This document shows, in pieces, positions 3,032-8,428 of a stretch of DNA of 29,696 bases (its first letter is position 1; each line of letters opens with the position of its first letter). This stretch comes from a virus: positions 1 through 29,696 of the IMG/VR virus record IMGVR_UViG_3300048010_000288. One strand, given 5' to 3'. Under the pieces are notes generated by a model. The model ran no database searches. It saw only the letters and a list, made by a program, of their open reading frames with translations, and was not told the origin of the DNA. The position numbers and the translations under genes were made by a program.

Positions 3032-4669
3032 ATGAAACCCTCTGCACAAGCAAGGTATATGACCCTGACAGCGGACAGGGAGCAGTTCCTAAATGCTGGG
3101 CGTAATGCTGCCAAGCTTACTCTACCTTACCTTCTGACAGATGAGGGTTTGGCTAGTGGTGAAAAGCTGCATACGCCTTGGCAATCAGTAGGGGCTAAGG
3201 GCGTCAATGTGCTCGCAGCAAAGATGATGCTGAGCCTATTCCCCGTAAACACAACGTTCTTTAAGCTGCAAATCAACGACGCAGAACTGTCTAAGCTTCC
3301 TGAAGTGAATGACGCTATGCGTTCTGAGATTGATCTTTCCCTTTCCAAAATGGAACGGGTGATCATGCAGCACATTAGCGAGACTTCAGACCGTGTGCAA
3401 CTGCACGCTGCTATGAAGCACTTGGTGTGTTCTGGAAACGTTCTTGTTTACCAAGGAAAGAAAGCCCTTAAGTTGTTCCCTCTTGATCGCTTTGTTATTG
3501 CCCGAGATGGTGATGGCAATGTTCAGGAGATTGTTACCAAAGAGATCGTCGATAGATCTCAGCTTCCCGAAGAGTTCCAGCAAGCCAATCCTGATCGTGA
3601 CGTTAACTCCCCTGGAGAAGACGGTCCGAAGTTTGGTGTAGCAAGCAGCTCTAACAAAGGCCAATCTGATGATGCTGTCATCTTTACTCATGTCGAGTTC
3701 AAAGACGGAGCACACAAGTGGTATCAAGAGTGTGAAGGTAAGAAGATCAAAGGATCTGATTCCTCTGCACCCCTGAAGTCCACTCCCTGGATGCCCCTCC
3801 GCTTTAACGTCGTTGACGGTGAAAGCTATGGACGGGGACGAGTAGAAGAATTTATTGGTGACCTGACTTCACTAGAGACCTTGATGAAGGCTCTAGTCGA
3901 GGGATCAGCTGCAGCCGCGAAGGTTGTGTTCTTGGTCTCTCCCTCCAGTACTACTAAACCCCAATCACTTGCGACAGCTTCTAGCGGCGCGATTATCCAA
4001 GGTCGTCCTGATGACGTTGGTGTGGTTCAAGTTGGCAAGTCTGCTGATTTCTCCACCGTCCAAACGATGATCGCTGATCTCACCAAGCGACTGTCTGACG
4101 CTTTCCTCGTACTGTCTGTCCGTCAATCTGAACGGACCACAGCCGAAGAGGTGCGTGCTACACAGCAAGAACTGAACGAACAGCTTGGTGGTATCTACAG
4201 CAACCTGACAACAGAACTGCTGACCCCTTACCTGAGCCGCAAGATGTCTCAGATGAGCCGCTCAAAGGTTCTCCCTGCCCTACCTAAGGGTTTGGTGATG
4301 CCAACCGTGGTGGCTGGTCTGAATGGCATTGGCCGTGGCCAAGACCGTCAATCCCTGATGGAATTTGCTGGGACTATTGCCCAGATTATGGGGCCTGAAA
4401 TCATGGCTCAATACCTGAACCCTGATGAGTTCATCAAGCGTCTCGCTGCAGCCTCAGGCATTGAAGCCTTGGGTCTGGTGAAGGGTGCTGATCAGATGAA
4501 GCAAGAATCCGACCAAGCCAAGCAAGACGCCATGCAAGCGCAGCTAGTCAGCCAAGCCGGACAACTGGCTAAGTCTCCTATCGGGGAACAGATGACTCAA
4601 CAAATGATGCAACAACCTAATGACCAACAGCAACCCAGCCCCGAAGCGCCGCCGAGCCCGCAAGCCTGA
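3032..4669 (+). CDS. Portal (head-tail connector) protein, T7 gp8-like
   Basis: A 545-aa portal protein (T7 gp8 is 536 aa), expected to form the dodecameric ring at the capsid vertex through which DNA is packaged and ejected. Recognisable features are the N-terminal region (ADREQFLNAGRNAAKLTLPYLL), the conserved WQSVGAKGVNVLAAKMMLSLFP block at about residues 50-73, and the SERTTAEEVRATQQELNEQLGG region (about 365-387) typical of podoviral portals. The C-terminus (about 490-545) is Gln/Pro-rich and probably flexible. It is followed by a gene overlapping its last 50 bases and then by the scaffold, the standard T7-like order. No Shine-Dalgarno is seen before the ATG. Confidence 0.95.
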   Translation: MKPSAQARYMTLTADREQFLNAGRNAAKLTLPYLLTDEGLASGEKLHTPWQSVGAKGVNVLAAKMMLSLFPVNTTFFKLQINDAELSKLPEVNDAMRSEIDLSLSKMERVIMQHISETSDRVQLHAAMKHLVCSGNVLVYQGKKALKLFPLDRFVIARDGDGNVQEIVTKEIVDRSQLPEEFQQANPDRDVNSPGEDGPKFGVASSSNKGQSDDAVIFTHVEFKDGAHKWYQECEGKKIKGSDSSAPLKSTPWMPLRFNVVDGESYGRGRVEEFIGDLTSLETLMKALVEGSAAAAKVVFLVSPSSTTKPQSLATASSGAIIQGRPDDVGVVQVGKSADFSTVQTMIADLTKRLSDAFLVLSVRQSERTTAEEVRATQQELNEQLGGIYSNLTTELLTPYLSRKMSQMSRSKVLPALPKGLVMPTVVAGLNGIGRGQDRQSLMEFAGTIAQIMGPEIMAQYLNPDEFIKRLAAASGIEALGLVKGADQMKQESDQAKQDAMQAQLVSQAGQLAKSPIGEQMTQQMMQQPNDQQQPSPEAPPSPQA

Positions 4670-4878: not shown

Positions 4879-5718
4879 ATGGCTAACCGCATCACATTTG
4901 ATCCCTCTGAGGATGTCACCGACGAACAGAAGGCTGCAGAAGCTCGTGCAATGGAGCAGGGAGACCTGTTGATCAAAGCACAGGAAGAGGACAAGGCTCG
5001 TAGGTTTGAACAAGCTGATGCTGAGGGTGAAGACGTATCACTCATCGGCGGCAAGTTTAAATCACAGGACGACCTCCTAAAGGCCTACGAAGAGCTTCAA
5101 TCAAAGCTTGGTAAGTCTGAACCTGAAGAGGAAGAAGAGCCCACTGAGGAGCAGCCAGAGGCTACTGAGGAGGTTCCTGAAGAGGAGACCCCTGAGGTAG
5201 TCACTGAGGCTGTTGATTATATGACTCAGCTCGGGAAAGAGTTCAGTGAGTCCGGCAATGTCTCTGATGAGGCTGTCGAAAAGCTCTCTGCTATGGACAG
5301 CAAAGATCTCGTCCAGGCCTATCTCAAGTACAACGCCAACACCACCGCTGCTGCACTGCAACAGAATCAGGTGAACGACATCATGGCGTCTGTTGGTGGT
5401 ACCGAGGCTTACACCGAGATGATCTCGTGGGCTAGCCAGAACCTGCCCGCAGAAGAAGTCAACGACTTCAACGCTGTGACCGCTACTAATAACCCTGTGG
5501 CTATCAAGTTCGCAGTCCAGGCCCTCTCCTCCAAGTGGAAAGGTGCCGAGGGCTATGAGGCTCCACTGGTTACTGGTCGCAAATCTGCATCCAAGAGCAA
5601 GGTCTTCCGTAGCCAGGCTGAACTGAGCCGGGCCATTGCCGACCCTCGCTATCAAACTGATCCCGCATTCCGGATGGATGTGGAGGAGAAGCTGTCCCGC
5701 TCTGGCGACCTTCTCTGA
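4879..5718 (+). CDS. Capsid assembly (scaffolding) protein, T7 gp9-like
   Basis: A 279-aa acidic protein between portal and capsid genes, the T7 gene 9 position. Scaffolding proteins direct procapsid assembly and leave before DNA packaging. Seen: an IGGKFKSQDDLLKAYEELQSKL motif (about 56-77) typical of podoviral scaffolds, a long Glu-rich disordered stretch (about 80-112), and a helical C-terminal half ending in a basic, Arg-containing segment (DPRYQTDPAFRMDVEEKLSRS) of the kind that contacts the coat protein. Its stop codon provides the first base of the pairing arm that can mask the ribosome site of the next gene. Confidence 0.92.
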   Translation: MANRITFDPSEDVTDEQKAAEARAMEQGDLLIKAQEEDKARRFEQADAEGEDVSLIGGKFKSQDDLLKAYEELQSKLGKSEPEEEEEPTEEQPEATEEVPEEETPEVVTEAVDYMTQLGKEFSESGNVSDEAVEKLSAMDSKDLVQAYLKYNANTTAAALQQNQVNDIMASVGGTEAYTEMISWASQNLPAEEVNDFNAVTATNNPVAIKFAVQALSSKWKGAEGYEAPLVTGRKSASKSKVFRSQAELSRAIADPRYQTDPAFRMDVEEKLSRSGDLL

Positions 5719-5793
5719 TCTCCAAGCGTTCGTTCATCCCTAACGGGACGCATAACACTCAGTGCATGGAACGGGGCCTGAGCTTTTGGAGAT
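5718..5793 (+). promoter_or_regulatory. Putative glutamine riboswitch (Downstream-peptide / glutamine-II-like)
   Basis: The leader contains the conserved blocks of the glnA/Downstream-peptide glutamine aptamers in order: CGTTCATCC (5731-5739), GGGACGCA (5745-5752) and GGAACG (5768-5773). P1 pairs CGTTC 5731-5735 with GAACG 5769-5773; a second stem pairs TCCC 5737-5740 with GGGA 5745-5748; a third pairs CAT 5751-5753 with ATG 5766-5768, with CAC/GTG inside. An outer helix joins ATCTCC (5718-5723) to GGAGAT (5788-5793), extended by AAGC/GCTT, and contains GGAG 5788-5791, the Shine-Dalgarno of the small gene at 5798. The downstream gene is a short ORF, as expected for the Downstream-peptide class. 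Inference: glutamine binding favours the closed outer helix and turns translation off. The class assignment is from remembered consensus. Confidence 0.75.
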
Positions 5794-5797
5794 TATC

Positions 5798-5929
5798 ATG
5801 TCTGACGTTCAAATTCGTGCAGCAGTGAAAGCTCAAAAAGCTGCTGCTAAGTACTACAAGCTCACCTATCGTGGTGTTGCTTATCTCAAGAGCCCCTCTG
5901 CTTGGGCTCCTGAGCGAATCCCTGCTTGA
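5798..5929 (+). CDS. 43-aa riboswitch-controlled small protein, DUF4278-like
   Basis: A 43-aa protein with a basic, Ala-rich N-terminal helix (residues 5-18) and a KLTYRGVAY motif (21-29) that matches the signature of the small cyanobacterial DUF4278-type proteins. Its ATG lies six bases after GGAG, the clearest Shine-Dalgarno in this window, and that site can be masked by the upstream glutamine-riboswitch-like leader. In cyanobacteria short proteins controlled by nitrogen signals act as inhibitors or adaptors of nitrogen metabolism (the glutamine synthetase inactivating factors, and small PII-binding proteins). A similar role here, reprogramming host nitrogen or carbon flow during infection, is an inference. 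It lies between scaffold and psbA, within the host-derived island. Confidence 0.75.
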   Translation: MSDVQIRAAVKAQKAAAKYYKLTYRGVAYLKSPSAWAPERIPA

Positions 5930-5983: not shown

Positions 5984-7060
5984 ATGACTGTCGCAATTAA
6001 GCAGTCTCAGGAGAATCTCTGGGACTCGTATCTTGAGTGGGTGACGTCCACAAACAACCGTCTATACGTAGGGCACTTTGGGGTGCTGATGATCCCCTCT
6101 CTGCTAACCGCAACTACCGCCTTCATAATCGCCTTCATTGCTGCCCCTCCGGTAGACATTGACGGCATCCGTGAGCCCGTCTCTGGTGCTCTCCTCTGGG
6201 GTAACAACATCATCTCTGGTGCTGTTGTCCCTTCATCAAATGCCATCGGCTTGCACTTTTATCCCATCTGGGAAGCTGCATCGCTTGACGAATGGTTATA
6301 TAACGGTGGGCCTTATCAGCTCATTGTATTTCATTTTCTCATTGGCGTTGTCTGTTATGCAGGACGCGAATGGGAGCTTTCGTATCGCCTCGGGATGAGG
6401 CCTTGGATCTTTGTTGCTTACTCCGCTCCCGTTGCTGCCGCCACGGCTGTCTTCCTTGTGTATCCGTTTGGCCAAGGTTCGTTTAGTGATGGTATGCCGC
6501 TTGGCATCTCTGGCACGTTCAATTACATGCTGGTCTTCCAGGCTGAACACAACATCCTGATGCATCCATTCCACATGCTTGGTGTGGCTGGTGTATTTGG
6601 TGGTGCTCTGTTCTCTGCCATGCATGGATCTTTGGTGACCTCCTCCCTTATCCGGGAAACCACTGAAGCGATCTCACAAAACTATGGCTACAAATTCGGA
6701 CAAGAGGAAGAGACTTACAACATCGTGGCTGCTCACGGTTATTTTGGCCGTCTTATTTTCCAGTATGCTTCCTTTAATAATTCTCGCTCTCTCCACTTCT
6801 TTCTCGCCGCTTGGCCGGTGGTAGGAATTTGGAGTGCTGCTATGGGTGTATCTACGATGGCCTTCAACTTAAATGGCTTTAACTTTAATCAGTCGATCAC
6901 ATCGTCTGAAGGACACGTAGTTAATACTTGGGCAGATATTCTTAATAGGGCTAGCCTTGGTTTCGAGGTGATGCACGAACGCAACGCTCATAACTTCCCC
7001 CTTGATTTGGCAACAGCTGACTCTAAGCCTGTTGCTCTTGTAGCCCCGTTGGTCGGATGA
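5984..7060 (+). CDS. psbA: Photosystem II reaction centre protein D1
   Basis: A full-length D1 (358 aa; cyanobacterial D1 is about 360), the thylakoid-membrane core subunit that binds P680, the manganese cluster and QB. With an offset of one from standard numbering all key residues are present: Tyr160 (YZ), His189 next to it, Asp169 and Glu188, His331, Glu332, His336, Asp341 and Ala343 (manganese ligands and processed terminus), His197 (P680), His214 and His271 (iron), and Ser263/Phe254 at the QB site. Glu129 equals position 130, the form associated with high-light D1. A 15-residue C-terminal extension remains for processing. The start is set at ATG 5984, giving the conserved N-terminus; an in-frame TTG at 5930 would add 18 unrelated residues. 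Phage D1 replaces photodamaged host D1 to keep energy flowing during infection. Its stop overlaps hli as ATGA. Confidence 0.98.
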
Positions 7061-7251
7061 CTGTAGTTACCGAAGAGCGTGGCCGTACAAATATTTATGC
7101 CATCGAACCTCCAATTATTATTATGTCACCTACTGATTATGAAGCCACCTACGGGTGGACTGACCGCGCTGAGCGCTGGAATGGTCGCCTAGCAATGCTG
7201 GGTGTGACCATCGCTATTGTTACACAATTGGTCGCCGGATCAATCTGGTAG
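7057..7251 (+). CDS. hli: High-light-inducible protein (Hli)
   Basis: A 64-aa single-helix chlorophyll-binding protein of the Hlip/ELIP family. The family motif [11 protein letters not shown] spans residues 39-49, with the chlorophyll-binding Glu39 and Asn42 and Arg44 visible, followed by a membrane helix (about 45-63). The N-terminal 35 residues are soluble and divergent. Hlips bind photosystem II assembly intermediates and dissipate excess energy, protecting new D1. The ATG overlaps the psbA stop by four bases, so the two photoprotective proteins are translationally coupled. A terminator-like hairpin follows the stop. Confidence 0.95.
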
Positions 7252-7266
7252 TCGGTATAGCCGACA

Positions 7267-7296
7267 GGGAGGTGCAAGCCCTCCCCTACCTATTTT
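7267..7296 (+). terminator. Intrinsic terminator-like hairpin after hli
   Basis: GGGAGG (7267-7272) pairs perfectly with CCTCCC (7280-7285) around a 7-base loop, and CTACCTATTTT follows. This closes the psbA-hli unit before the capsid leader. The T-run is short and begins a few bases after the stem, so termination may be partial. Confidence 0.55.
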
Positions 7297-7315
7297 GCCA
7301 CTAGGCCCAGTACGC

Positions 7316-7392
7316 TGGACAACCTTTTGGCGAAAGCTTTCGCTCAAGTTATAGAGCAATGTCCAACAAATTAAATAACTCTGTGCACAGAG
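7316..7392 (+). promoter_or_regulatory. Structured capsid-gene leader with two 14-bp palindromes
   Basis: In the gap between hli and the capsid gene, TGGACA (7316-7321) is complementary to TGTCCA (7360-7365) and encloses a perfect 14-bp palindrome, GCGAAAGCTTTCGC (7330-7343). A second perfect 14-bp palindrome, CTCTGTGCACAGAG (7379-7392), follows 35 bases before the capsid ATG. In RNA each palindrome gives a 5-bp stem with a 4-base loop. They could be RNase III processing or mRNA-stabilising hairpins for the most abundant virion protein, or part of a phage RNA polymerase promoter; the sequence alone does not decide. Confidence 0.5.
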
Positions 7393-7426: not shown

Positions 7427-8428
7427 ATGACTTATTCAGCTTTCCAGGGTAACAACGTAGCCGACGGCTCACGTACTCCCTCACAAAACTATGACACTCG
7501 TTACGCAACAGCTCTGAAGCTGTTCTCCGGCGAAGTGTTCAACGCTTTCAATGACGCCACGATCTTCAAGGGCCTTGTTCGTAACTACAGCCTCCGTGGC
7601 GGTAAGAGCAAGCAGTTCTTGCTGACTGGCAAGCTCGGCGCTGGGTACCATACCCCTGGCACGGCTATCGGACCCGACGCTGGTCTGAAGTCGAACGAGA
7701 AGACCATCGTGATGGATCAACTGCTGTATTCCAGCCAGTTCGTCTATGACCTGGATGAAATCCTCAGCCAGTGGTCTGCTCGCTCTGAGATCTCCAAGCA
7801 AATCGGTGAAGCTCTGGCCCTGCACTACGATGATCGTATTGCTCGTGTTCTCGCCAAAGGCGCTACCGAATCTTCTGTTGTTACTGGTGAGCCTGGTGGC
7901 TTCCAGGTGAACATCGGTGCTGGTAACACCAACAACGCTCAGGCTCTGGTTGACGGCTTCTTTGAAGCTGCAGCTGTGCTTGATGAGCGTTCTGCTCCTC
8001 AGGACGGACGCTGTGCTGTGCTGTCTCCCCGTCAGTACTACTCCCTTATCTCCTCTGTTGATACCAACATCCTGAACCGTGAAATCGGTAATACCCAGGG
8101 TGATATGAACAGCGGCAAGGGTCTCTACAGCATCGCTGGCATTCGCATCTATAAGTCCAACGTTCTGGCTGGCCAGTACGGCAAGGATGCAACTGCTAAC
8201 GCTGCCGTGACCGGTGAAGAGAACGACTACGTGGTGGACAACTCCGCCCTGGCCGGTCTCGTCTTCCACCGTGAAGCTGCTGGCACTGTTGAGGCTATTG
8301 GTCCCAGCATTGAAACCACTTCCGGTGACTACCACGTCCAGTATCAGGGCGACCTGATCGTGGGCAAACTCGCTATGGGTGCTGACACCCTGCGTGTGTC
8401 TGTTGCAGGCTCCCTCCAGGCTGCCTGA
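7427..8428 (+). CDS. Major capsid protein, T7 gp10-like
   Basis: A 333-aa HK97-fold coat protein (T7 gp10A is 345 aa). Typical features are the N-terminal YATALKLFSGEVFNAFNDATIF segment, the FLLTGKLGAGYHTPGT region at about 64-79, a long spine-helix region (SARSEISKQIGEALALHYDDRIARVLAKGA), and the RCAVLSPRQYYSLI block near 198-211. It is placed after scaffold (with the photosynthesis island between) and before tail tubular A. Codon use is strongly biased toward C-ending codons, as expected for the most abundant product; this also creates a long spurious reverse-strand open frame. No Shine-Dalgarno is visible; the leader is AT-rich. Confidence 0.95.
   Translation: MTYSAFQGNNVADGSRTPSQNYDTRYATALKLFSGEVFNAFNDATIFKGLVRNYSLRGGKSKQFLLTGKLGAGYHTPGTAIGPDAGLKSNEKTIVMDQLLYSSQFVYDLDEILSQWSARSEISKQIGEALALHYDDRIARVLAKGATESSVVTGEPGGFQVNIGAGNTNNAQALVDGFFEAAAVLDERSAPQDGRCAVLSPRQYYSLISSVDTNILNREIGNTQGDMNSGKGLYSIAGIRIYKSNVLAGQYGKDATANAAVTGEENDYVVDNSALAGLVFHREAAGTVEAIGPSIETTSGDYHVQYQGDLIVGKLAMGADTLRVSVAGSLQAA

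Follow-up and report, generated by a model that had tools for sequence, protein, structure and literature searches.

A putative type-2 glutamine riboswitch ahead of a DUF4278 small-protein gene in a Syn5-like T7-type cyanophage

The aptamer and its place in the head-gene cluster

The window analysed here, by which we mean the whole stretch of 29,696 nucleotides, is a 29.7 kb viral record (IMG/VR IMGVR_UViG_3300048010_000288) whose closest named DNA relatives are S-TIP28 and Syn5, both of the genus Voetvirus. In the part of interest, the gene order is portal, scaffold, Glutamine-II aptamer, DUF4278, psbA, hli and capsid (Table 1). The aptamer was the sole Rfam match above cut-off in the whole window searched with Infernal (E = 6.4e-9). 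A preliminary description of this DNA had recognised three sequence blocks of a glutamine aptamer, which lie where it placed them (CGTTCATCC at 5731-5739, GGGACGCA at 5745-5752 and GGAACG at 5768-5773, read from the window), and had likened them to both the glnA and the Downstream-peptide classes. The covariance model bears out the aptamer and its Downstream-peptide (Glutamine-II) identity, but not the likeness to glnA: because the Glutamine-I model (RF01739) scores 20.4 bits against a cut-off of 35, that class is ruled out and the aptamer is assigned to type II. Mapped onto the crystal-structure numbering of PMC6698751 (A33 at 5766, G35 at 5768, and G36 to G42 at 5769-5775), no pseudoknot base named in that paper is missing from the window; the CGUUC/GAACG helix and the contacts C5751:G5774 (C19:G41) and A5766:G5775 (A33:G42) are all present, as are the triple bases G18 and G35, found as G5750 and G5768. 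From family membership, L-glutamine would be the expected ligand. The single-sequence folding energy of the leader (z -0.69) was not informative.

Table 1. Features of the riboswitch locus and its flanking genes, in window coordinates
Feature	Position	Strand	Evidence or remark
Head scaffold/assembly protein gene (upstream)	4879-5718	+	phrog_1052, 5.3e-61
Outer (anti-Shine-Dalgarno) helix, 5' arm	5716-5726	+	First three bases are the scaffold stop codon; covaries across phage leaders
Glutamine-II aptamer (RF01704)	5728-5782	+	Infernal, full model 1-60, 48.0 bits vs gathering score 33
Pseudoknot helix, 5' strand CGUUC	5731-5735	+	Pairs with 5769-5773; C1-C5 of the crystal structure in PMC6698751
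P1 hairpin UCCC/GGGA	5737-5748	+	Rfam alignment
Linking strand C17-G18-C19	5749-5751	+	C5751 pairs with G5774; alignment to PMC6698751 numbering
P2 hairpin	5758-5782	+	Arms 5758-5765/5776-5782, U5763 bulged, 7 pairs; Rfam alignment
3' pseudoknot strand (GAACG), inside P2 loop	5769-5773	+	Pairs with 5731-5735
Outer helix, 3' arm	5785-5795	+	Contains Shine-Dalgarno GGAG 5788-5791
DUF4278 small protein gene, 43 aa	5798-5929	+	Start ATG 5798; PF14105 25.6 bits vs cut-off 25.3 (narrow pass)
psbA (photosystem II D1), downstream	5984-7060	+	phrog_182, 2.4e-186
High-light-inducible protein gene (hli)	7057-7251	+	phrog_178
Major capsid protein gene, landmark beside phage copies of the switch	7427-8428	+	phrog_267

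The small phage gene downstream had likewise been anticipated, though without its DUF4278 identity. Relatives of the encoded protein keep a near-invariant L-x-YRG-x-x-Y motif, and pooled pN of 0.079 against pS of 0.32 (pN/pS 0.25) among them indicates purifying selection on the ORF. A tblastn search with the small ORF recovered no relatives in phages, its shortness being the probable reason, and no solved structures were found for the protein family. Some short-type leaders hold an in-frame ATG inside AUAUGGAG, which was not taken as the ORF start.

Pattern scans of IMG/VR (at least 120 stretches per scan) were followed by confirmation of Glutamine-II with Infernal at ten representative phage loci, and in P-SSP7, P-SSP2, P-SSP3 and P-GSP1 the aptamer sits in unannotated DNA. 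A survey of the context of phage leaders (tblastn with window proteins, within 1.5 kb) found that most of the 189 with a YRG-type ORF among the matches listed have the capsid gene as their next recognised downstream gene, with psbA or scaffold usually the closest one upstream. In Syn5 no gene is annotated between the scaffold and capsid genes, and Syn5 is absent from the DNA matches of the window aptamer; the module therefore looks inserted. A consensus for the Syn5 RNA polymerase promoter matched neither the window nor the Syn5 stretch, an uninformative negative. Since phage copies lie almost always in the scaffold/psbA-to-capsid interval, and since some ORFs after phage aptamers are only 13-20 codons long, the main beneficiary of the switch might be the capsid gene: through transcript stability or readthrough, the switch would adjust capsid production to nitrogen supply, and the small ORF would be a leader peptide. 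However, another conserved RNA structure, which has a leader of its own, stands between the ORF and the capsid gene, psbA and hli intervene in the window, and no terminator was found at the small-ORF end; we consider such a role very improbable.

Several further features were observed in these loci. L328, a close relative of the window, carries a group I intron at 4136-4363 (RF00028, 107.6 bits), on the same strand and ~0.9 kb downstream of the riboswitch. Loci L120, L249, L255, L276, L277, L296, L300 and L312 involve a ~120-aa, signal-peptide-bearing, beta-barrel-like protein (MKxxALALA...KIGAKYKF): in some phages it starts immediately behind the DUF4278 micro-ORF or at a distance within its reach, and in others a similar C-terminus ends just upstream of the aptamer. 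Tandem pairs of glutamine-aptamer-like elements occur in other marine phage contigs (L003, L030, L031, L034, L036, L062, L098, L112 and others), often with a palindrome (e.g. TGTGTTA...TAACACA) before them and a YRG-type small ORF after.

A second structured RNA lies just upstream of the major capsid gene, at 7247-7368 in the window and at ~5640-5830 in Syn5 (L431). In many loci 44-92 nt separate it from the capsid start; a pattern search found a copy in 137 of the 183 fetched capsid-bearing loci among the matches listed, and pairs covary strongly in 68 representatives. Its parts are a hairpin that is tRNA T-arm-like in some loci and bears a CACCUCAGAGUCGGAC loop in others, a UUGGC...GGAUACC...GCC domain and a GUGG-GAUAGA-CCAC hairpin. 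The copies scanned gave no Rfam match above threshold, with a weak mascRNA (tRNA-like) resemblance in Syn5, and the element might be where RNase P-type processing occurs, or might act in translation of the capsid mRNA.

An outer helix over the ribosome-binding site

The proposal in the preliminary description that an outer helix hides the Shine-Dalgarno sequence holds, and the helix is longer than was claimed, with 11 pairs (U5716-G5726/U5785-A5795), two of them G-U, and -13.6 kcal/mol as a duplex. Because the arms fell out of register when whole leaders were aligned with MAFFT, we used arm-swap permutations, in which duplex energies between the 20 nt preceding the aptamer and the segment running from P2 up to the start codon were compared for native and swapped pairs, with near-duplicates removed and groups defined from the encoded protein independently of the helix. 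In window-type phage leaders, defined by a protein with an N-terminal extension (n = 79 non-redundant leaders among the matches listed), native arms averaged -6.52 kcal/mol and swapped arms -4.50 kcal/mol (z -9.2, 0/20000 permutations), and 5' arms shifted 20 or 40 nt upstream as a negative control gave no signal. The result was repeated in loci from a separate later fetch only (z -5.5) and persisted with the window-like clade removed (z -5.7), and inside the 13-member window-like clade native arms outperformed swapped ones (0/20000). Among the matches listed, leaders of phages with the shorter protein gave z -2.6, and host leaders showed no outer helix by the same test (z 0.4).

Compensating changes are seen in the arms GAUCUCCAAG/UUUGGAGAUU of the window, CUCCAUAG/CUAUGGAG of L282, GAUCUCCG/CGGAGAUC of L381 and AAUCCAUAG/UUAUGGAUU of L340, the covarying change in the last (GGAU/AUCC) falling inside the Shine-Dalgarno itself. 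In the window-type group, the Shine-Dalgarno is covered in 18 of 26 helices of -7 kcal/mol or stronger; a strong helix (-9 kcal/mol or better) is found in only 17 of the 79 leaders, and the P-SSP7-type leaders inspected are mostly without one. Sequence and comparison together establish the aptamer, the small gene and the outer helix, and the lock over the ribosome-binding site appears to be this phage group's own addition, absent from host copies. An intrinsic terminator was rejected as the expression platform, since the outer helix is not followed by a U-tract and terminator prediction gave nothing at that point.

The position of the 5' arm, which begins at or just past the scaffold stop codon in the window and in many relatives, would also suit a device that mainly ties translation of the small gene to termination of scaffold translation, with the aptamer inherited and contributing little; in most window-like relatives, moreover, the aptamer follows the end of the scaffold match by 12-17 nt. 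Yet conservation of the aptamer core is complete and extends to bases that serve ligand binding alone, and some helices have psbA or a different gene before them, or an upstream gene whose end is far from the arm (L061, L050, L288); we find a mainly coupling role quite unlikely. Translating ribosomes may nevertheless open the 5' arm regardless of glutamine, since the arm overlaps the scaffold stop codon.

Direction of the switch

We consider it probable that in this Syn5-like T7-type cyanophage a type-2 glutamine riboswitch controls translation of the DUF4278 small protein as an ON switch, with the outer helix as its lock. Without glutamine, the outer helix would hide the Shine-Dalgarno and keep translation low; upon glutamine binding, the pseudoknot would lock onto P2 and, the linker being very short, drag the 5' arm off, freeing the Shine-Dalgarno, so that the small protein would be made when glutamine is abundant. 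We infer both the ON direction and this tether (strain) mechanism, and favour them because published ON behaviour, linker geometry and pseudoknot-free folding point the same way. In experiments covered by a review, a type-2 element from a Prochlorococcus strain is reported to switch expression on when it binds glutamine (PMC6316151), and ligand binding is expected to free an occluded ribosome site (PMC6698751, the structure paper). In span estimates from ideal A-form geometry, as opposed to a 3D model, 15 of 29 strong helices have a linker too short, or an arm overlapping P2, for the full-length helix to coexist with the folded pseudoknot and P2. When the leader is folded without the pseudoknot, 5728-5735 continues the outer helix (-26.8, compared with -23.6 for outer helix, P1 and P2 together).

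The preliminary description had the gene shut off when nitrogen is plentiful, which is probably wrong, given the activating host element and the competition between helix and folded aptamer in many members. In an OFF switch, the glutamine-folded aptamer would stack on the outer helix and stabilise it, hiding the Shine-Dalgarno at high glutamine. The outer helix does enclose the aptamer as a nested stem, and the linkers of the window (4 nt and 2 nt) allow the two to coexist by the ideal-geometry estimate: the 5' linker must span ~27 Å and its 4 nt reach ~32 Å, just enough to make coexistence, and hence an OFF switch, possible in the window. The phage platform also differs from that of the host, so that host polarity need not carry over. 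Against this stand the published activation by the host element and the 15 helices with unsuitable linkers or arms, and on balance we regard an OFF switch as unlikely and retain the ON switch as the preferred reading.

Relation to known systems and biological meaning

The window leader shares with RF01704 of marine picocyanobacteria the aptamer, the pseudoknot bases and the class of downstream DUF4278 small protein, and the host leaders fetched also precede LTYRG-type small ORFs. It differs in its covarying anti-Shine-Dalgarno outer helix, its location in the head-gene cluster and the lack of an upstream NtcA-type box. The motif GTA-N8-TAC, which we take to be the NtcA-box form, was found within 35 nt upstream in 20 of 26 host leaders, compared with 1 of 139 phage leaders, among the matches listed, and lies directly upstream of the type-2 aptamer in host loci such as L126, L137 and L149, suggesting that the transcriptional sensor was lost in the phages while the RNA one was retained. 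The copies in P-SSP7, P-SSP2, P-SSP3 and P-GSP1 have the same aptamer followed by a YRG-motif micro-ORF, adjoining psbA and the capsid gene, but their ORF is of a 17-aa type without the N-terminal extension and they have little or no outer helix.

Glutamine aptamers of cyanobacteria mainly precede DUF4278 genes, and marine picocyanobacteria carry more than one copy of the type-2 element (PMC6316151); Weinberg et al. 2010 described the motif before ORFs of 17-100 aa in cyanobacteria and marine samples (PMC2864571). A review treats type-2 glutamine riboswitches as restricted to marine picocyanobacteria, with phage cases appearing elsewhere and in passing only. Glutamine riboswitches have already been reported in phages (PMC9004378, PMC9964418, PMC9602691). 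Those of phage Melnitz (in the tmRNA region) and Pelagibacter phage Mosig are likewise glutamine riboswitches in marine phages, but in the accessible portion of PMC9004378 the Melnitz element is described as glnA (glutamine-I)-like and tmRNA-linked, with no mention of a DUF4278 gene. The literature searched, with incomplete coverage, yielded no description of the phage DUF4278 module or its platform. What appears to be new is the phage-specific expression platform together with its almost invariable location shortly before the major capsid gene of T7-like cyanophages.

The Glutamine-I riboswitch of gifB (IF17) in Synechocystis likewise senses glutamine before a DUF4278-containing nitrogen regulator, and as an ON switch, but belongs to the other aptamer class, whose model fails on the window. 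IF7 and IF17 are glutamine synthetase inactivating factors, which bind and inhibit glutamine synthetase. Only the DUF4278 part of IF17 is recognisable in the 43-aa phage protein, and that part is reported as dispensable for IF17 function (PMC6316151). By analogy with what is thought of its host relatives, the small protein would probably adjust host nitrogen metabolism, the least certain step of the scheme. It is possible, if doubtful as a whole, that T7-like cyanophages rebuilt a host riboswitch with their own ribosome-site lock, releasing a DUF4278 microprotein when glutamine rises in infection and so steering host nitrogen assimilation during capsid production.

The type-2 switch is a common module of T7-like cyanophages with a nearly fixed place beside the capsid gene, including isolates in which the spot is unannotated. 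Its covarying anti-Shine-Dalgarno arm gives this class, for which a switching mechanism has so far only been proposed, an expression platform that is concrete and can be tested, and the module provides a direct route to asking how a lytic phage reads the nitrogen state of its host.
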